Shown in pieces: positions 11,579 to 22,554 of a stretch of 64,000 nucleotides of DNA. Position 1 is the first letter of the stretch, and each line of letters opens with the position of its first letter. Below the pieces are notes generated by a model, which worked only from the letters and a program-made list of their open reading frames with translations, did not search any database and was not told the DNA's origin. Source of the DNA: Maricaulis salignorans (lineage in GTDB: Bacteria > Pseudomonadota > Alphaproteobacteria > Caulobacterales > Maricaulaceae); assembly GCF_900103475.1 (NCBI RefSeq), contig NZ_FNHG01000002.1, positions 124,001-188,000 of the forward strand, written 5' to 3'. The translations under genes were made by a program, and so were the position numbers.

Positions 11579-12766
11579 CTAGAGCCGCTCGATCGCAACA
11601 GCGGTCGCTTCGCCGCCGCCAATGCAGAGCGAGGCAACGCCCTTGGTCTTGCCGTGCTTTTCGAGCGCGGCGATCAGGGTGACGATGACGCGCGCGCCGG
11701 AAGCACCGATCGGGTGGCCCAGCGCACAGGCACCGCCATTGACGTTGACCTTGTCATGGCTGAGGCCGAGCTCTTTCATCGCAATCATTGGCACGACAGC
11801 GAAAGCCTCGTTGATTTCCCACAGATCGACATCCTCGATGGCCCAGCCGGCACGCTCGACAACCTTGCGCATGGCGGGCACCGGAGCGGTGGTGAAATAG
11901 GCCGGCTCATGGGCATGGGCTGCCGTGGCAACGATGCGCGCGAGCGGTTTGAGTCCACGGCGTTCGGCTTCCGATTTGCGCATCAGCACCAGGGCGGCCG
12001 CGCCGTCGGAAATGCCCGAAGCATTGGCGGCCGTGACGGTGCCGTCCTTGCTGAAGGCCGGACGCAGGGAGGGAATCTTGTCCGGCATGGCGCGGCGCGG
12101 CAGCTCATCGGTATCAACCACGACATCCCCCTTGCGGGTGGTCAGCGTGACCGGTGTGATTTCGCGCTTGAAATCGCCATCCTTGGTCGCGCGCTGGGCG
12201 CGGGCCAGGGTTTCCAGCGCATAGGCATCCTGCTGCTCGCGCGTGAATTGGTGTTCCTGGGCAATCATGTCGGCATAGACGCCCATCGGCTTTTTCTCAT
12301 AGGCATCTTCAAGCCCGTCCTGGGCCATGTGATCCTTGAGCACGTCATGGCCATATTTATAGCCGGCGCGGTGCGTCGGCAGCATGTGCGGCGCATTGCT
12401 CATCGATTCCATGCCGCCGGCGACGATGATGTCGGCATCGCCGGACATGATCGCCGAACGGCCCATGATCGCGGCCTGCATGCCCGAGCCACACATCTTG
12501 TTCAGCGTGGTCGCCTCGACGGATTTGGGCAGACCGCCCTTGATCCCCGCCTGGCGCGCCGGGGCCTGGCCCTGACCGGCCTGGAGCACATTGCCCATCA
12601 GGATCTGATCGACATCTTCGCCGGCCACGCCGGCCTCTTCCATCGCGGCCTTGACTGCAATGGCGCCGAGTTCATTGGCCGACAGCGTCGTCAGCTCGCC
12701 GAGCAGGCCACCCATCGGGGTACGCGCCATGCCGACAATGACGATTGGATCATCAACTGCACTCAT
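11579..12766 (-). CDS. Acetyl-CoA C-acyltransferase (thiolase)
   Basis: 395 residues, the normal length for a type II thiolase, which either condenses two acetyl-CoA or cleaves 3-ketoacyl-CoA. Active residues are visible: the nucleophile Cys in [11 protein letters not shown], the His in [16 protein letters not shown], and the second Cys in [13 protein letters not shown] chose the start MSAVDD at 12766 because GAGGAG sits nine bases upstream; longer in-frame starts give a non-homologous leader. It could serve the end of isoleucine or fatty-acid degradation next to the bkd operon, or polyhydroxyalkanoate supply. The exact chain-length preference is not readable. Confidence 0.93.
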
Positions 12767-12810: not shown

Positions 12811-13314
12811 ATGATGAAAACATGCGGCACCGCGTCAAGTCTTTTCGCAGATGCAACATTGGCATTGCGGACTCGGCCCGGCCGCCCAGCCTGTCTGGAA
12901 GCCCTGTCCCTGCTCACTGTTTTGACGGTTTTCGCGCTCACCGCCGGCTCCGGAGCGCATCTATTCACATTTGCATCGATGACTGACTGGCCCGGACTGA
13001 TCGGCCTCGCCCTGATCGCCATCATCATTCCCGCGCTGGGCGAGGAGATGGTGTTCCGTGTCCTGCTCGCAGGCCGGCGCGGCCGATGGCGGGCGGGGGC
13101 CGCTCTGGCGCTCTTCGTCCTCTGGCACCCGGCCCAGCTCTGGCTCGGCCTGCCCATGGCCCAGCCCGTCTTCGCCAACCCCGCCTTCCTCGCCATCACC
13201 GCAGCGCTTGGCCTCGCCTGCACGATCAGCTGGCGCCGCTCGGGTTCGGTCTGGCCAGCCGCGGCGATGCACTGGGCCCTTGTGGTGATGTGGAAGGGGC
13301 TGGCGGGCGGTTAG
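12811..13314 (+). CDS. CPBP-family intramembrane protease-like protein
   Basis: 167 residues from ATG 12811, with hydrophobic segments throughout the second half. The family's motifs are present: EEMVFR (glutamate pair plus arginine, motif 1), FVLWH (motif 2) and MHWALV (motif 3, lacking the usual Asn/Asp after the histidine). CPBP proteins are Rce1-like membrane proteases; bacterial ones process or protect against small peptides, but most are unassigned. It diverges from the thiolase gene. Noteworthy: the last 45 codons are present a second time, decayed, at 15023-15159 on the far side of the DUF2589 gene pair. Confidence 0.8.
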   Translation: MMKTCGTASSLFADATLALRTRPGRPACLEALSLLTVLTVFALTAGSGAHLFTFASMTDWPGLIGLALIAIIIPALGEEMVFRVLLAGRRGRWRAGAALALFVLWHPAQLWLGLPMAQPVFANPAFLAITAALGLACTISWRRSGSVWPAAAMHWALVVMWKGLAGG

Positions 13315-13495
13315 GCGCAGGACGGGCGACCTTCATCATGCCGCGCCTTGCGCCACCCTGCAGCCTTCAGAACCGGCCGGACCGGCTGTCTCACAAAGCC
13401 TCGTCGCGGCTTATGTCTTTGGCCGACCTCCAGAATCCCTTGATAGTATTTGATTGGATTATGGGCTAAGGTTGTATGGAAAGGTGGGTGGTAAG

Positions 13496-14224
13496 ATGCT
13501 TGACATCAGCGACCTCATCGCCGCCGTCCAGGAAGCGGTCAGCGAAGCCGCAGAGCAGGTTCACCAGAAGAACCTTGCCCTGCTCGACTATTATTTTGAG
13601 CCCGCCGAAAGCGACCCCGGACCCGACGGCCTTGGCCGGGACCATGACCGTGACCATGACGGGGATCGTGATCGGGACCGGGAAAAACACGCCCACCATC
13701 TCGCGCGCGATCCTGGCGAACCGGGGCGGAGCCAACCCCGATTGCCGCCTGCATCATTCGCGAGATCCCTTCACGCGGCCCCGGCACGAATGGAGGCGTC
13801 AGTCGCAGGCGCGGCCGCGGCGGCAGCCCGCGGCATTCCGCCGGGTCGTGAGCCTCCCGGTGGCGGCGAAAAAGATGACGGGGACGGCCCACGCGGACCG
13901 ATCAAGCCGAAGATGACGATCGTGCGTTACCCGGTCATGACTGAGAACGGGCCAACGACCCATGATGTCTGGGTGCCGCTGATTTCACTTCTGCCGCAAT
14001 CCCAGCTCGCACTGAAAGAGTTGAGGCTCAAACTCAAGGTCGAACCCACCGAAGGTGGCAAGGGTCTGCGTCTGGCGTTTCCCGGACGACGCAGCTGGTT
14101 CACGCCCGCCCGGGAAGAATACGGCGAGGTCGAAATCGTCATCGAAGGCACCCAGACGCCTGCGGGACGCTCAGAACTCATCGAAGGTTACACCAAAGGA
14201 CTGAGATCACAGATACCCGGATAA
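13496..14224 (+). CDS. DUF2589-related protein with charged, low-complexity middle
   Basis: 242 residues from the ATG at 13496. Residues 1-35 are a helical head (LIAAVQEAVSEAAEQVHQKN, then LLDYYFEP). Residues about 45-130 are low complexity: a run alternating Asp with His or Arg (RDHDRDHDGDRDRDREKHAH), then Ala/Gly/Pro-rich. The C-terminal half is ordered beta structure: TTHDVWVPLISLLPQSQLAL then KELRLKLKVEP. This lines up with TTVVLPLISAIPVALIGVDF and VRISFDMEVKSS of the next gene, so I infer common descent. No signal peptide; probably cytosolic. The function of the family is unknown. The Asp/His stretch is encoded by repetitive DNA, and a frame slip cannot be excluded. Confidence 0.6.
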   Translation: MLDISDLIAAVQEAVSEAAEQVHQKNLALLDYYFEPAESDPGPDGLGRDHDRDHDGDRDRDREKHAHHLARDPGEPGRSQPRLPPASFARSLHAAPARMEASVAGAAAAAARGIPPGREPPGGGEKDDGDGPRGPIKPKMTIVRYPVMTENGPTTHDVWVPLISLLPQSQLALKELRLKLKVEPTEGGKGLRLAFPGRRSWFTPAREEYGEVEIVIEGTQTPAGRSELIEGYTKGLRSQIPG

Positions 14225-14249
14225 AATCAAACCCTAGGGGAGAAATCTC

Positions 14250-14942
14250 ATGGCATCCGAAGACCTTATTTCAATGGCCCAGGCCTTTTCCGGCCTGCCG
14301 ATGGATCAGCTCATCGGCGTCCCATTGATCGAAGCGTGCCGCGCCAATAACCGCATGGCCCTCGCACAGACCAAATACATCCTCGATACCGGTTTCCAGC
14401 AAACGACAAATAGCGATGGCGATACCGTCTACACGCCGATCGAGATCACGCTCGATCTGAAACGGCCAATCATCACCGACATCCCGCTACTGGACAGCAA
14501 TGACGAAGCGGAATTGGACGGTGACGGCAACCCGATCATGACCAAGGGGATCAGCACTGCGGAGACCACGGTAGTCTTGCCGCTGATTTCCGCCATCCCG
14601 GTAGCCCTGATCGGGGTCGATTTCGTCCGGATCAGTTTCGACATGGAGGTCAAATCCTCCTATGCGCGCGACACCACCCAGTCCGAGAAGACGGACTACT
14701 CCGCCGCCGCCTCCCTGGAGGCGAAATTCGGCTTTGGTGGTTTTTCCGCGAAAATCACCGGCAGCGTCTCCTATCACTCGGAAAAATCCTCTGAGCAGAA
14801 GGAGCAGTATTCCAAGAGTAATAGCGCGCGCTATAATGTCGAAGTCACCGCGAAACAGCAGGCCCTTCCCCAGGGCCTCGCCGTGCTGCTCGAAGCCTTC
14901 GCCAGGAATGTCGGCCCCTATGAGGCCGCCGCGCCGGCCTGA
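14250..14942 (+). CDS. DUF2589 domain protein
   Basis: 230 residues. N-terminal helix and LPMDQLIGVPLIEACRANNR match the characteristic opening of DUF2589 proteins (a self-association-like helix that begins with a P-x-x-x-L-I-G-x-P pattern). Strands TTVVLPLISAIPVALIGVDF and VRISFDMEVKSS follow, then a segment where Ser, Lys and Glu alternate (YHSEKSSEQKEQYSKSNSAR) and a final YNVEVTAKQQALPQGLAVLL helix. No enzyme motif is visible. It follows its paralog by 25 bases with a GGGGAGAAA ribosome site, so the two are one operon. The function is unknown in the family; a structural or assembly role is only a guess. Confidence 0.75.
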   Translation: MASEDLISMAQAFSGLPMDQLIGVPLIEACRANNRMALAQTKYILDTGFQQTTNSDGDTVYTPIEITLDLKRPIITDIPLLDSNDEAELDGDGNPIMTKGISTAETTVVLPLISAIPVALIGVDFVRISFDMEVKSSYARDTTQSEKTDYSAAASLEAKFGFGGFSAKITGSVSYHSEKSSEQKEQYSKSNSARYNVEVTAKQQALPQGLAVLLEAFARNVGPYEAAAPA

Positions 14943-15022
14943 GGCATCTGAACACGGTTGACCGGACCCGGCCCGACAAGTGCCGGGTCCGGTTTGCACG
15001 GAAGACACCGCGCTGGCGCGAT

Positions 15023-15159
15023 CCGCCTTCCTCGCCATCCGCACATCTCATGCTCTCGCCCGCACCATCAGCTGACGCCGATCGGGGTCGCTCTGGCCGG
15101 CGGTCGGAATGCACTGGGCGGGGTGTCGTCATGCTGAAGGGGTTGGCGTGCGGTTAGGC
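15023..15159 (+). pseudogene. Decayed duplicate of the 3' end of the CPBP gene
   Basis: This stretch aligns with 13181-13316, the last 45 codons of the CPBP gene. Both begin CCGCCTTCCTCGCCATC and end GCGGTTAGGC. Translated, it reads AFLAI...ALARTIS, then a TGA where the intact gene has TGG (Trp), then RRSGSLWPAVGMHW against RRSGSVWPAAAMHW. One extra base after that destroys the frame. Nothing upstream of 15023 matches. It is a remnant of a second CPBP copy and ends exactly at the stop codon of the following gene. Confidence 0.85.
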
Positions 15160-15849
15160 TCACACCGCCTCCTGAGCCGGCTGGCGCTGCAGAAGAAGCC
15201 GCAGGCAGAACGCGGTCTCTGCCAGGATCGTCACCCCATATGCGGGCGTGAATGCGGCCGACCATTCCGGCGCGAAGAAGCGCAGACCGCTGCCAGTCAG
15301 ATAGACCAGACCGGCAATCACCAGGCCTGCGCCGAACACCTTCGAAATCAGGCCGGAACGCCAGACAAGCAAGCCCATCATCACGCTGTTGACGCCGAAG
15401 AAAACCAGTCCGAGATCATAGCCATGACCGTGCAGATCGAGGGAGACCAAGGCGAGCGCGTGGGCATCGGCCAGCCCGTCAGCGCCCGACAGGATCAGCC
15501 ACGCGGCCTGCAGGGCCATGAGATTGGCGGCGATCAGCACGGTCTGGATCAGCCGGAACACCATGGCCGAGAGCGCCAGACCCGGCGCTGCCGCGCGGAA
15601 GACCAGATAGAGCAAGATCGCCAGCCCGGCATCACAGAGCGCCATGACAAGATCGGCCGCGATCGCCAGCCGGAACTGGCCGGGAGCCGCAAGGATCGCC
15701 GCAGCGGTGGCGTCGGCATCGGCGAGATCGATCAGCGGACCGCGCAGGCCAAGCTCGGCGCCGAGGCCGGCGATGATGATGACGAGGTAGAACAAGCCCG
15801 CCAGGCGCGCCCTGCGCGCGAGATCGGGGGTCAGGGTGAGATTGGTCAC
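15160..15849 (-). CDS. DUF4386 family membrane protein
   Basis: 229 residues from a GTG at 15849 that has AAAGGA eight bases upstream. Six or so hydrophobic helices; the opening LARRARLAGLFYLVIIIAG and the later GVNSVMMGLLVWRSGLISKVFGAGL are typical of DUF4386 integral membrane proteins. Family function is unknown. It is last in a leftward run of genes (LysR, cyclase, wrbA, dsbA-like, EamA), 44 bases behind the EamA gene, so probably expressed with them. Its stop codon touches the CPBP remnant at 15159. Confidence 0.8.
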   Translation of the reverse strand: MTNLTLTPDLARRARLAGLFYLVIIIAGLGAELGLRGPLIDLADADATAAAILAAPGQFRLAIAADLVMALCDAGLAILLYLVFRAAAPGLALSAMVFRLIQTVLIAANLMALQAAWLILSGADGLADAHALALVSLDLHGHGYDLGLVFFGVNSVMMGLLVWRSGLISKVFGAGLVIAGLVYLTGSGLRFFAPEWSAAFTPAYGVTILAETAFCLRLLLQRQPAQEAV

Positions 15850-15893
15850 GCGGGATATCCTTTCTTGAGCGCCGGTCAGGTCTTGAGCGCTGG

Positions 15894-16781
15894 TCAGGCG
15901 GGCTTTGCCGGGGTTGAAACTGTGCACACCGGGCCGGGGTTATTGGCACGCTGGCCGGCCCAGACCGAGCCGAGGACGATGGCTGCGCCAAGCCCCTGCA
16001 ACAGTGACAGCGACTGGCCCAGCACCGCCCAGCCGAGGATGACCGCCATCACAGGGCTCATCATTGCGAGCATGGATACCGCGCCAGGGTCAAGTCGGGC
16101 GAGACCGCGAAACCAGATCGCATAGGTCGCCGCGGCGCCAACCAGGCAAAGCCAGGCCAGACCGCCGAGATTGGCGAGGGTGAGCGGTGGCAGCGGCGGC
16201 TCCAGGATGAGGGCCAGCGGCAGCAGCACCAGCCCCCCGGCAGTGAGCTGCCAGGCGGTGAAACTGAGCGCCGGGACAGGCGGCTGCCATTTCCGGCTCA
16301 GCACGGTGCCGGCTGCCATGGATGCCGCACCGCCCACCCCCGCCGCGATCCCGACCGGATCGAGCGTCGCGTCCGGGCCGATGAGCAGGAAGGCAACCCC
16401 GAGAATGCCGCTCGCCGCCGCAGCAACGGCCCCCGCCCGCACCGGTGTACCGAGCCAGCCGCGCGCCATGAGGATGACCATCATCGCCTGCAGCGATCCC
16501 AGCGTCGCGGCGACCCCGCCGGGCAGGCGGTAGGCGGCGACAAAGAGCAGCACCCAGAAGAGCGCGAAGTTGAAACTGCCCAGCAGGAAGACCCGCCCGA
16601 GCCAGGCGCGCGGCGGCAGGCTGCGTGTGACGGCCAACAGCAAAAGACCCGCCGGCAGGGCGCGCAATGCCGCGATGGTCACGGGGTAGCTGGCCGGCAT
16701 GAGCTCGGTCGTGACGAGATAGCTGCTGCCCCAGACTGCAGGGGCCAGCGCTGTCAGTAGAATATCTCTGGTGCGTGACAT
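15894..16781 (-). CDS. EamA/DMT-family transporter
   Basis: 295 residues with ten predicted hydrophobic helices in two similar halves, the drug/metabolite transporter architecture. Typical features are the N-terminal TALAPAVWGSSYLVTTELMP and, in the second half, TALS-type helix starts (FTAWQLTAGGLVLLPLALIL; SMLAMMSPVMAVILGWAVLG). Inner-membrane exporter or importer of an unknown small metabolite. I chose ATG 16781 because GGAG sits nine bases upstream. It lies 23 bases behind the DsbA-like gene in what looks like a single operon, which suggests export of a compound processed by those enzymes, but that is inference. Confidence 0.85.
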   Translation of the reverse strand: MSRTRDILLTALAPAVWGSSYLVTTELMPASYPVTIAALRALPAGLLLLAVTRSLPPRAWLGRVFLLGSFNFALFWVLLFVAAYRLPGGVAATLGSLQAMMVILMARGWLGTPVRAGAVAAAASGILGVAFLLIGPDATLDPVGIAAGVGGAASMAAGTVLSRKWQPPVPALSFTAWQLTAGGLVLLPLALILEPPLPPLTLANLGGLAWLCLVGAAATYAIWFRGLARLDPGAVSMLAMMSPVMAVILGWAVLGQSLSLLQGLGAAIVLGSVWAGQRANNPGPVCTVSTPAKPA

Positions 16782-16804
16782 GGGCCACATCTCCGGGTCA
16801 GGGT

Positions 16805-17437
16805 TCAGCGCAGCGCGTGACGCAGCTGCACCGCCAGTACATCGCGCGATCCGTTGGCGAGGCGGCTGCCAGTCTCGCGGATGATAAGGGCCGGGACGGA
16901 GCGGACCTGCTGTGCGCGGGCGAGCTGGCGGTCGGCCTCGACAGCGCAGGCGGTAGCCGGGTCGCTGAGGAAGCGGGCGAAGCCCCCCGACTCCAGGCCG
17001 CTCTCGCGGGCAAGCTGGAGCACGGTGGCAGGGTCGGCGATATTGCGGGCCTCGGCGAGATGCGCGCGCTGGAGGCGGTCAAACAGGTCCCAATGGGCGC
17101 CCGGCCCGCCGAGCCGTTCGGCTGCCTTGCATCCCAGCGCCGCCGTCATCCCGTGGGGATAGTCGAACGGGGCCTTTCGCATCGCCTCGATGTCAACGAG
17201 CTCCGGCCGGTCACTCGCCTGGCGGCAGGCCGACCAGTGCCCGAGAATGATCTCGCGGGCCTGACCCGGCGCCCCCCAGCGCGCGGCCATCTCGCCACGG
17301 CTCGCCTGCAGGACGAAGGTGCGATGCCGGATATCGAGCCCAAACTCGGCCGCCAGGCAGCGCATTCGCGACGAGATGTTGAAACACCAGCAACACACCA
17401 CGTCGTGGAAGAAATCGATGGTGAGGGCGGCCGTCAC
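16805..17437 (-). CDS. DsbA-family / FrnE-like thiol oxidoreductase
   Basis: 210 residues from a GTG at 17437 whose last bases overlap the wrbA stop (GTGA), so translation is coupled. Thioredoxin-type start [15 protein letters not shown] holds a CCWC active site (FrnE and 2-hydroxychromene-2-carboxylate isomerase-like proteins usually have CPWC). An inserted helical domain and a C-terminal [13 protein letters not shown] cis-proline region complete the fold. No signal peptide, so cytosolic. Likely a disulfide or glutathione-linked oxidoreductase; together with WrbA this suggests handling of quinones or other electrophiles. Confidence 0.8.
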
Positions 17438-18057
17438 GCCGCGGCCTCCTTCAGATTGGCACCGGCCAGGCGTGCGGCAATCCGGGCGACATGAGCGCCC
17501 TGGAAGCGGGCACCGGCGAGGTCGATCCGTGATGGCGCGCGCGAACCATCGGCTCCGGCGATCGTCCCCGCGCCATAGGGCGCGCCCCCTATAATCCCGT
17601 CCGCCGTGGTCTGTCCGGCGAAGGTGTAGGGCATGCCGGCAATCAGCATGCCGAAATGCTGGAGCGGGATCTGGGTGGAGAGCAGGGTTGCTTCGTGACC
17701 GCCGTGCTGCGAGCCGGTGGAGGCGAAAACCGCCGCGACCTTGCCGACCAGCGCGTTGCGCGCCCACAGCCCGCCGGCCTGGTCGAGAAAGGACTTCATC
17801 TGCCCGGCCATCATGCCAAACATGGTCGGCGTGCCGAGAATAATGCCGTCATAGGTTTCGAGGTCAGCGGGCGTCGCAAGCAGTGTGTCGTCAGCGATGA
17901 AGCCCGCCTTGCGCCGGATTTCCTCGGGGACGGTTTCGGGGACGCGGCGCAGATCGACATGAGTGCCAGGCACGCTGTGAGCGCCATCGGCTTCGGCCTG
18001 AGCCAGGGTGCGCACATGGCCATAGCTGGAATAATAGAGGACAAGAATCCGGGTCAT
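17434..18057 (-). CDS. wrbA: NAD(P)H:quinone oxidoreductase, WrbA type
   Basis: 207 residues. Flavodoxin-like fold with the FMN phosphate loop [13 protein letters not shown] near residue 8, [23 protein letters not shown] at about 70-92 and [15 protein letters not shown] near 113-127, all typical of WrbA, a tetrameric FMN enzyme that reduces quinones by two electrons. Slightly longer than Escherichia coli WrbA because of a C-terminal tail. It is between the cyclase gene (26 bases upstream) and the DsbA-like gene (4-base overlap). Confidence 0.92.
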
Positions 18058-18083
18058 CAGAACGAGCCTTTTTGTTTCGGGGA

Positions 18084-19067
18084 TCAGTGGATCGGCAGCG
18101 CGATCGGACGCAGGGGCGCGGCATCGGCGCCGCGCAGCTTCAGGGAGGCGCCGATGAAGGCGAACTCGTAGCGGCGCGCCTCGGCGAGGCCTTCGAGATT
18201 GACCAGCTCCATGATCGGAACGCCCATCTGCGCCAGTAGATAGGTGTGGACGGGAACGTAATTGCCGTCGATCTCGGACGGGAAGGCCTCGAAGCTCAGA
18301 TTGTCGGCCCCGACGATCATGGCGCGTGACTCTTCGGCGAGAAAGCGGGCGGCCTCGAGCCCGAGGCCCGGCGGGTTGTCCATATATCGGTTGGCGTGGG
18401 CATAGAGCGCCATGCGCCCGGTGCGGATCAGCACGACATCACCGGTGTGAAGCGCGACGCCCTGGCGCGCCAGTGCGCCCTCGAGATCCGCGCGGGTCAC
18501 ACGATAGCCCGCGGGCAGCATGTCGACGCCCTTGAAGGCGGCGACATCGATCATCACGCCCCGCGCCACGATCGGCGGGATGGTTTCGGCACCCGTCACC
18601 TGCCAGCCCGTATCGCCGAGATGTTCGTCGGCGCTGAAATGATTGTAGATCTCTCCATCGAGGCCGAAATGATTCAGCGCGTCGATATGGGTCCCGGTGT
18701 GGGTGTACATCGAGACCGCCGAGCCGGTGTAGCTGACATGGTCATTGGCCGCCTCGCCCACCTGCAAGGGGTCGTCATTCACCGTCCCGCGCGGCGTGTG
18801 AGTCATCCATATCTGATATCGGGGATCGCCGGCGGCGTGCCATCCTGGCATGCCGATGAAATACTCAACGGACAGGTCGTAAACGGTGCCTCCGGTAATC
18901 CGGGACAGGATGGAGGCGCGCGAGCGCTCCGTCATCAGATTGAGCGCGCCGAGCTGATCGTCCGGGCCCCAGGGGCTGGTGCCGACCGTGGCCGGCATTT
19001 CGGCGATGGCGGCCGGAAGGGACAGGGCCAGGCCCAGGGCGAGGGGCAATAGGATCGGGGTCTGCAT
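18084..19067 (-). CDS. Secreted cyclase-family (kynurenine formamidase-like) metal hydrolase
   Basis: 327 residues with a signal peptide ([17 protein letters not shown]). The cyclase/KynB-like fold is recognised by [14 protein letters not shown], the metal and catalytic motif [13 protein letters not shown] (family HxGTHxDxxxHF), [19 protein letters not shown] and the late [14 protein letters not shown]. Such enzymes hydrolyse amide or lactone-type bonds using a bound metal ion. Unlike cytosolic KynB this one is exported and 100 residues longer; the substrate is unknown. GGGAGATCCCG precedes its ATG. It heads the operon downstream of the LysR gene. Confidence 0.88.
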
Positions 19068-19171
19068 CGGGATCTCCCTGGCAGGTTTGACATGCCCGGG
19101 AAGATGCAGCGGGGGCCGGAGGGGAATAACCGGCCCGCTTTCACTTCATTGTTTACGCTGGTTGAATAATC

Positions 19172-20059
19172 TCAGGACCGCAGGGCTGCCCGCAGCTGGT
19201 CGAGAAACGCCGTCACTTTCGCGTCCATGCCGAGTCGCGAGGACGTCACGGCGAAGATGTCCGGGGCGGGAAGTTCCCAATCCGGCAAAACCCGAACAAG
19301 CTCGCCGCGCGCTTCGGGGGCGTTCGAGACAAAGTCCGGCAGGGTGCCGATGCCCTGCCCCGCGATCAGCAGGTCGCGCAGCACGAGACTGTTGCCAACC
19401 CGGAGCTTGGGGTCGAGTTCGACTGTGTCCGTGCCCGAAGGCCCGTGCAGTGTCCAGGAGGTGAGATGGTCCGCAAGCAGGAAGCCGATCACCGCGTGTT
19501 GCGCGATGTCTTGCGGCACCTTCGGATGGCCGGCCCGTTCGAGATAGGCGGGGGCCGCGAAAATCCTCTGCCGCACCGTGCCGAGCTTGCGTGCCACCAG
19601 CGCCGAGTCCGGCAGGGCGGCGCGGATGCGGATCGACACATCAAACCCGCCCTCGACCATGTCGACCACACGGTCATCGAGCGATAGGGTGAGCGAGAGA
19701 TCCGGATAGCTGTCGCGAAAGTCCGGAAGCATGGGGGCAATGACCGTCTGGCCGAAGGAGGCCGGGGCGTTGACCTTGAGATGGCCGCGCACGGCACCGG
19801 CGCCCTCGCGAATGCGCGTCTCGACCTTGGTCACGGCGTCGAGAATGCTGATCGCCTCGTCATAATAGAGCCGGCCGGCATCGGTCAGCGACATGGAGCG
19901 GGTCGTGCGCGTGAGCAGGACACTGCCAAGGCTTTCCTCGAGCAGCTTGATCTCGCGGCTCAGGAGCGCCGGCGAAACGCCGAGATCCTCCGCCGCGCGG
20001 GCGAAATTGCCGCGCTCGACGATGCGGCGGTAGGCGTGCATGACGGAAAGCTTGTCCAT
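19172..20059 (-). CDS. LysR-family transcriptional regulator
   Basis: 295 residues from ATG 20059. N-terminal HTH (MHAYRRIVERGNFARAAEDLGVS...LLSREIKLLEESLG) and a full substrate domain (HLKVNAPASFGQTVIAPMLP, DVSIRIRAALPDSALVARKLG, LLIAGQGIGTLPDFVS) of the CrgA/YafC subgroup. It lies 104 bases before the secreted cyclase on the same strand, so it probably controls, and may be co-transcribed with, the cyclase-wrbA-dsbA-EamA genes. The inducer is unknown; a quinone or other electrophile is possible given the enzymes downstream. A start further upstream at 20125 is in frame but adds a leader without similarity. Confidence 0.92.
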   Translation of the reverse strand: MDKLSVMHAYRRIVERGNFARAAEDLGVSPALLSREIKLLEESLGSVLLTRTTRSMSLTDAGRLYYDEAISILDAVTKVETRIREGAGAVRGHLKVNAPASFGQTVIAPMLPDFRDSYPDLSLTLSLDDRVVDMVEGGFDVSIRIRAALPDSALVARKLGTVRQRIFAAPAYLERAGHPKVPQDIAQHAVIGFLLADHLTSWTLHGPSGTDTVELDPKLRVGNSLVLRDLLIAGQGIGTLPDFVSNAPEARGELVRVLPDWELPAPDIFAVTSSRLGMDAKVTAFLDQLRAALRS

Positions 20060-20210
20060 CGCGGGCAGATACTCGGTCAGATTGATAGCCAGTCCCGCCA
20101 GGGCAGGAATTCGACCGGGTAGCACAAATCCCGATGCTCCGCGAATGGGTTGGCCCCAGCGGGCGTGACACCTACCCGATCAACCGGTGACCATTACCGG
20201 GCTGGCGGGG

Positions 20211-20525
20211 TCAGGGATCGGGGGGCTCGTCGAGCAGGTGCGCCAGAGCGCGATGACCTTCGACATAGCGCAGCACGAGAAGTACATCGCCCTGATACCG
20301 CGTCATGATGAGATAATTGCCCACAACACTGCTGCGGATGCCCGGCCCGAGCTCTTCGCGAGGACGTCCGAGTTCAAAGGGCGAAGCCGCCATCGAACGT
20401 GACCGAGCCAAGAGCTTTTCGAGAAAGCCCTGGGCGGCGGCGATGCTTCCCGTCTCGGTGTAAATGTACCGTGCAATATGATCGAGATCGTCCAGCGCCG
20501 GGCGGGTCAGCACCAGCTGGAACAC
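20211..20525 (-). CDS. parE: RelE/ParE-family toxin
   Basis: 104 residues from a GTG one base after the antitoxin stop. The ParE fold is evident: LTRPALDDLDHIARYIYTETGSIAAAQGFLEKLLARSRSMAASPFELGRPREELGPGIRSSVVGNYLIMTRYQ in family order (helix pair, then strands ending in VLRYVEGHR and a short acidic tail). ParE toxins of this group poison DNA gyrase; RelE relatives cut mRNA. The family assignment is secure, the target less so. With the preceding gene it forms a standard antitoxin-first operon. Confidence 0.9.
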   Translation of the reverse strand: MFQLVLTRPALDDLDHIARYIYTETGSIAAAQGFLEKLLARSRSMAASPFELGRPREELGPGIRSSVVGNYLIMTRYQGDVLLVLRYVEGHRALAHLLDEPPDP

Positions 20526-20526
20526 C

Positions 20527-20772
20527 TCACTGCGCTCCGGACTTCAGCTCATCGAAGGTCGCGGCGAGATGAGCCTCCGCCTCCTCGATCGTGTAACGGC
20601 GCTCATCATTGATCGCGGCCAGCAAGGAGGCCCGCAACTCCGCCAGCTTGGCCTCACGCTCCTCGACCAGGCGCAGGCCCTCGCGCACGACCTCGCTCTG
20701 GGATGTGTAGCGGCCCTGCTTGACCTGTTCTTCGACGAACAGCTCCCAGCGCTTTCCGATTGAGACATTCAT
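20527..20772 (-). CDS. parD: ParD-family antitoxin
   Basis: 81 residues. Ribbon-helix-helix start ([20 protein letters not shown] then [19 protein letters not shown]) followed by a toxin-binding C-terminal helix (YTIEEAEAHLAATFDELKSG). I chose ATG 20772 because GGAGGT lies four bases upstream; a GTG at 20778 overlaps that site. It represses its own promoter in known systems. Unusually, about 120 bases of its 5' part also lie inside the 3' part of the membrane-protein frame (20654-21277) on the same strand. Confidence 0.9.
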   Translation of the reverse strand: MNVSIGKRWELFVEEQVKQGRYTSQSEVVREGLRLVEEREAKLAELRASLLAAINDERRYTIEEAEAHLAATFDELKSGAQ

Positions 20773-21277
20773 GAGCACCTCCGATCAGTGACCTTACAGC
20801 GAAGGATAACACAAATTGCGCCGTTTTCGCTATTATCCGATCCGCCGATACCCGCGCCTGCCGCCAATAACGGGGCTGGCGACCGCGCCATCGCCAAAGG
20901 CCGTCAGGATCGTAACCTCGACCGGTCAGCCGCTTCCGAGCCCAGCGGGCGAATCGCGGCCAAAGGAAAAAACAGACGACAACATTCAATACCGCGACCA
21001 GCCTTCCTGGCGTTTTCTGCTCCAATCTTATTCCGTCCAGAGAAATATTCGGGTCAGGAAATGTCCAAGTTTCCGGCCAGACGCCCGCAAATACCAGCAT
21101 CGTCCCGGCACCAATCATGACCGCCCATCCGAGCACTCCCGCATATATCAAGCCAAGCCGGAACCAATGAGGCCCCACCGACCGTCTGAGTCCCAGATCA
21201 ATGAGCGCAAGCCAGATGGCACTACCACCGAGAAGGATCGCCAAGAGCGTCAGGTAAATCGGTCCCCACCACGTCAT
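20654..21277 (-). CDS. Membrane protein coupled to mnmA; 3' part overlaps parD
   Basis: The frame begins with an ATG that overlaps the mnmA stop (ATGA, 21274-21277), which is good evidence of a real start. The first 140 residues hold three hydrophobic helices ([56 protein letters not shown]) and a basic cytoplasmic end. From about residue 150 the sequence turns Arg/Gly-rich and runs through the parD promoter and coding region in another frame. I think the natural protein ended near residue 140-150 and that its 3' end was lost or frameshifted when parDE arrived. No family recognised. Confidence 0.55.
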
Positions 21278-22500
21278 ATCAGCCGATACCCGCTCGCGGC
21301 CGCCGTTGTCGCCGCCCCACTCGCACTCGTCTTCGCGATCCAGCCGCCGCCGAGAACCCGGCCATCATCCTCGGCCGAATAGAAAACACAGGCCTGGCCG
21401 GGTGCCACACCCTCTTCGCCGCCCGGCAGGACGACAGCGATCTCATCACCATCGACGGAAAAGGCCGCATCCACCGGCGGGCGCGTCGAGCGCACTTTCA
21501 CCCGCACGGGAACGCCGTCTGCCAGGGCTTCATCGCCGAGCCAGTTGATGTCTTTCAGCGTAATGCGATCAACCGCCAAAGCCTCGCGCGGCCCGACCAC
21601 GACCCGGGCCGTGGCGGCATCGAGCTTGACGACATAGAGCGGATCACCGATCGCGATCTTGAGACCGCGGCGCTGGCCGACCGTGTAATGGATCACACCT
21701 TCATGTCGGCCCAGAACAGTGCCATCGACATGGACGATCTCGCCGGGGCGCGAGACGCCGGGGCGCACCTTTTCGACGATATCGACATAGCGGCCCTGGG
21801 GCACGAAGCAGATGTCCTGGCTGTCCGGTTTGTCGGCGACGATCAGGCCGAAGGCCTCGGCGAGCCGGCGCGTCTGGTCCTTGTCGAGATGGCCGAGCGG
21901 GAAGCGCAGGAAATCGAGCTGTTCATGCGTCGTCGCGAACAGGAAATAGGACTGATCCTTGCCGGCGTCGTGGGCCCGGCGCAATTGCGCCCCCTTCGGC
22001 CCTTCGACGCGCTGGATATAATGGCCCGTCGCCATGCAGACAGCCCCGAGCTCGCGCGCGGTGGTCAGCAGGTCGGCGAATTTGACGGTCTGATTGCAGC
22101 GCACACAGGGAATCGGCGTGAAGCCGGCCAGATAGGTGTCGGCAAACTCCTCGATCACCGCCTCGCGGAAACGGCTCTCATAATTGAGGACGTAATGGGG
22201 AAAGCCGCATTCCTCGGCGACGCGCTTGGCGTCATAGATATCCTGGCCGGCGCAGCAGGCGCCCTTCTTCTGGATCGCGGCGCCATGATCATAGAGCTGC
22301 AGCGTCACGCCGACGACATCATAGCCGGCCCGGTGGAGCACAGCCGCAGTGACGGAAGAATCCACCCCGCCGGACATCGCCACGACGACGCGGTGATCGG
22401 CGGGATTGCCGCCCAGGCCGAGCGGATCGCCGGCGAGGCCAAATTCGTTGAGAAGGTCATCGGCACGCGCCATCGCGCGACCGGAATCGGTGTTCGTCAT
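21274..22500 (-). CDS. mnmA: tRNA-specific 2-thiouridylase
   Basis: 408 residues. MnmA puts sulfur on U34 of tRNA Lys, Glu and Gln. Seen: PP-loop [15 protein letters not shown], the catalytic pair region [10 protein letters not shown] and [31 protein letters not shown], and a C-terminal beta-barrel ending [20 protein letters not shown] chose ATG 22500, with GGAGGCGAAT in front; the upstream in-frame start at 22533 has no ribosome site. It lies 54 bases behind flgL on the same strand, so a housekeeping tRNA enzyme may be read through from the hook-junction operon. Confidence 0.95.
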
Positions 22501-22554
22501 ATTCGCCTCCAGCGGGGTCAAGGCCCGCAGCAAACGGTTGAAGTTGGGCTTGGC

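Follow-up and report, generated by a model that had tools for sequence, protein, structure and literature searches.

The literature searched yielded a single passing mention of the DUF2589 family (PF11655), to which no function is assigned. The described systems closest to the locus analysed here are the CPBP / Rce1-like family (PF02517), whose last motif usually takes the form H-x3-N, and the Type 10 secretion and phage lysis cassettes (holin plus endolysin). We followed up a DUF2589 gene pair located between an intact CPBP gene and a decayed CPBP 3' end in a 64,000-nucleotide stretch of Maricaulis salignorans DNA (hereafter, the window), which to a sequence-only reading had looked like a mobile or defence-type cassette. 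Our preferred reading, to which we give a probability of about 0.6, is that the locus is a variable slot holding an accessory gene pair, that CPBP is a resident neighbour of the pair by position and not its partner, that the decayed end is a partial duplicate of the genome's own CPBP gene, and that the pair would work at the cell wall. The site itself is mostly ordinary; the part worth following is a family-wide association of DUF2589 genes with cell-wall hydrolases.

The thiolase-mnmA slot and its genes

The slot would lie between resident genes, thiolase and CPBP to its left and mnmA to its right. Its main features in the window are as follows.

11579..12766, minus strand: thiolase gene, left border of the slot and kept neighbour of CPBP (the mechanical ORF reaches 12865)
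12811..13314, plus strand: CPBP / Rce1-like predicted intramembrane protease gene, 167 aa, matching PF02517; resident of the thiolase-mnmA interval, similarly placed in relatives from the genus and family
13496..14224, plus strand: DUFA, DUF2589 paralogue, 242 aa, PF11655 27.9 bits; N-terminal helix, charged low-complexity linker, no Ser/Thr-rich hairpin; orthologues in G032 (a genome of another genus) and in genomes of a third genus
14250..14942, plus strand: DUFB, full-length DUF2589 protein, 230 aa, PF11655 82.4 bits; Ser/Thr-rich amphipathic beta segment at residues 134-192
14960..14994, plus strand: strong hairpin just 3' of DUFB, fold -36.6 kcal/mol, z -4.4
15023..15160, plus strand: decayed duplicate of the CPBP 3' end, 78% identical, with one in-frame stop and one +1 frameshift
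21274..22533, minus strand: mnmA-like gene (named from its sequence), right border of the slot in relatives

The CPBP ORF scores 41.4 bits against PF02517 (curated cut-off 22.4) and is one of six members of this family in the genome. An EExxxR motif is seen in its sequence, and its last motif reads HWALV in the place of the usual H-x3-N; its protease activity is a prediction. DUFA and DUFB both exceed the curated PF11655 cut-off of 23 bits, which places them in the family, and profile comparison shows them to be homologous (97.8% probability, E 9e-13). Their earlier description as paralogues of undescribed role, one with a repetitive Asp/His/Arg linker, holds; the linker sits in DUFA, at approximately residues 45-70. 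By eye, neither protein shows a signal peptide, and the two probably act together. The hairpin at 14960..14994 is likely the transcription terminator of the pair; a simple terminator scan did not call it, because few T residues follow the stem. The pair would then constitute an accessory two-gene unit closing with its own hairpin. No integrase or transposase was found among the genes scanned around the pair, and no tRNA gene in the window.

The same interval contains a ParE/ParD toxin-antitoxin pair recognised by Pfam (20211-20525 and 20527-20778, minus strand), and a ParD-like ORF is also present in the CPBP-mnmA gap of genome G007 (locus L080). Between the remnant and mnmA, positions 15160-20125 hold accessory genes (DUF4386, EamA, DSBA-like and others), and two adjoining 18-bp copies, 94% identical, lie at the start of the DUF4386 gene (15863-15898).

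Position of CPBP and the pair among relatives

CPBP was matched in 18 of the 19 genomes of the genus, the exception being one incomplete genome. It stands divergently beside the thiolase gene in all 14 other genus genomes whose locus was compared, and mnmA comes next after it in all but one of them. DUF2589 is absent from 18 of the 19 genomes, and 17 congeners carry CPBP without the pair. The CPBP-mnmA interval ranges in the genus from 50 bp to 3.5 kb, with cargo that differs between genomes, and reaches about 8 kb in the window; the intervals of the genus relatives contain no DUF2589 or CPBP relics and no second CPBP.

PF11655 is rare, being found in 8 of 398 genomes of the order and 9 of 398 of the phylum. 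The gene order in G032 is GNAT-thiolase-CPBP-DUFA-DUFB. Four genomes of the third genus show thiolase followed directly by DUFA and DUFB in the same slot, without CPBP, and mnmA is next after the pair in the three whose contigs reach that far. The pair occupies this slot in three genera, of which two also have CPBP there and one does not, and CPBP and the pair stand side by side only in the window genome and G032.

These arrangements bear on the proposal that CPBP and the pair make up one functional (defence or toxin) cassette. Adjacency and a common direction in two genera speak for it, but the pair occurs in the same slot without CPBP in the four third-genus genomes, CPBP occurs without the pair in the 17 congeners, and the CPBP-DUFA gap measures 181 bp in the window and 87 bp in G032. 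Moreover, a search of PADLOC-DB 2.0.0 gave no match at E 0.01 for CPBP, DUFA, DUFB or two DUF2589 relatives. No CPBP was detected at 93 other DUF2589 loci with a model built from 18 local CPBP proteins plus a motif scan, which is weak evidence of absence since the model is narrow and the motif scan misses even the CPBP of the window. Nor was PF02517 among the families listed when 181 genes flanking DUF2589 loci were scanned with Pfam. We consider a single cassette very improbable. A functional CPBP-DUF2589 link, as the sequence-only reading had suggested, is not supported, and the two look linked by position only. For the window, the value of this result is mainly corrective: the seeming cassette partner is a resident neighbour.

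The decayed CPBP 3' end and the history of the pair

The arrangement originally described, with an intact CPBP gene, two DUF2589 genes and a CPBP 3' end decayed by a stop and a frameshift, proved real by Pfam, alignment and shuffling. Alignment of 13181-13316 with 15023-15159 confirmed homology in two blocks, 13181-13277 with 15023-15119 at 79% identity and 13281-13319 with 15124-15162 at 82%. The homology extends to about 15162, a few bases beyond the old stop codon, and touches the minus-strand gene that follows, at its stop codon (15160). The local alignment scored 81, against a maximum of 30 among 200 shuffles, and when the CPBP protein was searched against the translated whole genome, the remnant was the sole second match (E 5e-8, with a TGA inside). 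The lesions consist of a TGG to TGA change plus a 1-nt insertion, and 20 of the 97 bases of the first block differ (10 at third, 5 at first and 5 at second codon positions). Among the CPBP genes compared, the one at 12811-13314 and those of 17 relatives, the remnant scores best with the copy of its own genome (73.5; next 43). In the CPBP tree the remnant likewise pairs with its own genome's gene (support 94/75), with branch lengths of 0.28 for the remnant and 0.037 for the window CPBP gene.

Being closer to its own CPBP than to the copies of the 17 relatives, the remnant probably stems from a partial duplication of the CPBP 3' end that is specific to this lineage, and drifts freely. The lineage would have duplicated the 3' portion of its own CPBP, most simply by a tandem duplication followed by loss of most of the second copy, and what appears to be an insertion scar would be a decayed partial duplicate.

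The main rival to tandem duplication with later loss is integration through CPBP homology, in which the pair would have been acquired by recombination with the DNA of another alphaproteobacterium; single-crossover or tandem integration would have left it flanked by CPBP sequence. Such an event is consistent with the direct repeat of the CPBP 3' end that flanks the pair, with the absence of the pair from the 18 congeners, and with the divergence of the window copies, since the window DUFB branch is long (1.3-1.7) and identity to the same-slot copies is only 45-48%. However, no donor was found, no repeat accompanies the pair in the slot of other genera, and the two CPBP copies are mutual closest relatives, so that recombination would need a close donor, which counts against it. 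We regard this route as a real but rather unlikely alternative. A pair inserted between the copies of a pre-existing tandem CPBP duplicate would also be bracketed by a repeat, and the long branch of the remnant is as for an old, freely drifting copy; yet no relative has a second CPBP in the slot, and the remnant was sought and not found in G032, the other genome with CPBP plus the pair. This order of events seems improbable.

The preferred reading, a partial duplicate of CPBP in a variable slot, leaves two routes for the pair. The window genome is nested inside its own genus, so that the distribution of the pair calls either for repeated loss or for transfer into the same slot. In the DUFB tree, the window copy falls in an alphaproteobacterial clade with the same-slot copies and one Rhodospirillales sequence (95/89), and a single clade of same-slot copies is not rejected (p-AU 0.34). 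For a pair found in only this member of the genus, transfer fits as well as loss.

The wider DUF2589 family and its hydrolase neighbours

A genome scan recovered 80 DUF2589 loci across Pseudomonadota, Bacteroidota, Myxococcota, Acidobacteriota, Spirochaetota, Fibrobacterota and others, with DUFA-like and DUFB-like genes both present in most of them. DUF2589 is also carried by 13 viral contigs, some plainly phage, and by three plasmids, all non-mobilizable. Many phyla and some phage contigs carry the pair, which is conserved as a two-gene module of sporadic occurrence. Phage records gave no match to the window DUFB, and DUF2589 relatives matched one unannotated record; a PHROGs search with DUF2589 proteins returned none. 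On one viral contig (L179:49-6588) the pair directly follows a gene for an 1849-aa tail-spike-like protein. A small conserved protein of about 94 aa (cluster c1) lies beside DUF2589 at 27 loci of one branch (e.g. L131:6707-7024), and a small zinc-ribbon-like protein (cluster c4) adjoins it at L096:6663-6986 and nine other loci.

The shared neighbours of DUF2589 genes include GH108, GH19 and GH25 enzymes. An endolysin-type peptidoglycan hydrolase ORF was present within about 6 kb at 34 of 87 genome loci (80 from the genome scan and 7 from a separate phylum draw). The types comprise GH19, GH24, GH25, GH108, amidase and others, with families confirmed by Pfam; GH24, Amidase_3 and GH19, also Pfam-confirmed, occur in the separate draw. 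An M15-like call in L202 is our reading of the sequence and has no Pfam match. None of the 46 control loci, totalling 0.43 Mb (DUF2589 loci: 1.02 Mb), held a muralytic-enzyme ORF, the hydrolase seeds having been taken from the same DUF2589 loci and the controls being shorter and all from one order. A distal-gene control of 74 genes showed no hydrolase family with two or more members among the families listed. After thinning of near-duplicate species, the hydrolase lies on the DUF2589 strand in 23 of 23 cases (p 2.4e-7), and 19 of these 23 enzymes have no N-terminal hydrophobic stretch. The association is concentrated in one family branch (25 of 39 loci), with 4 of 41 loci in the window's own branch.

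This neighbourhood suggests a cell-wall or lysis-related role for DUF2589 pairs, and makes it testable whether the pair acts with cell-wall hydrolases. No peptidoglycan hydrolase was recognised near the pair at the window locus, so the role of this copy is extrapolated from its relatives' neighbourhoods: the pair may form a beta-rich assembly at the cell wall, with endolysin-type hydrolases where these are linked.

Across the family, residues 134-192 of DUFB are rich in Ser/Thr (32% vs 13%) and show strong beta-type alternation (1.03 vs 0.63 when shuffled); any exposed or buried amphipathic strand alternates too, so the alternation is no proof of a pore. The window DUFB also contains one hydrophobic 19-residue stretch with a mean of 2.34, a value above 1.6 being reached in only 19 of 94 relatives, which makes membrane contact of this copy conceivable. 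The structure models of DUFB and DUFA are of low confidence (pLDDT 69 and 71, respectively). With the DUFB model, neither Foldseek (best E 0.45) nor VIA (Z at most 4.5) gave a significant match; SecB-like and hot-dog-like VIA rows were set aside as weak (Z about 3). VIA on the DUFA model gave no row at Z 2 or more, and a profile search of PDB sequences gave no match. In BFVD, the DUFB model had one significant structural match, the unnamed viral protein A0A516MP19 (E 1.1e-6).

A bolder proposal sees in DUF2589 pairs a partner module of endolysin-type hydrolases, widespread and so far undescribed. The Ser/Thr-rich alternating segment of DUFB, partnered by DUFA, would form a beta structure that crosses the membrane and let leaderless wall-cutting enzymes or cargo through, a holin-like task performed without helical holins. 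We hold this to be unlikely as a whole. No holin or spanin stood out among the shared neighbours of DUF2589 loci.

Compared with the DUF2589 family at large, the window locus is typical in that both proteins pass the PF11655 cut-off and most relatives are also DUFA-DUFB pairs, whereas DUFA matches the model only in part and has a long charged linker, and the window copy stands without the hydrolase neighbour common in one branch. As to the beta-pore-forming proteins, neither sequence comparison with the PDB nor Foldseek or VIA on the low-confidence models matched a known fold. The relation to Type 10 secretion and phage lysis cassettes is one of resemblance and not of membership, no hydrolase having been recognised at the window locus; the likeness lies in the relatives, where endolysin-family muralytic enzymes, mostly without an N-terminal hydrophobic stretch, are encoded beside the pair.
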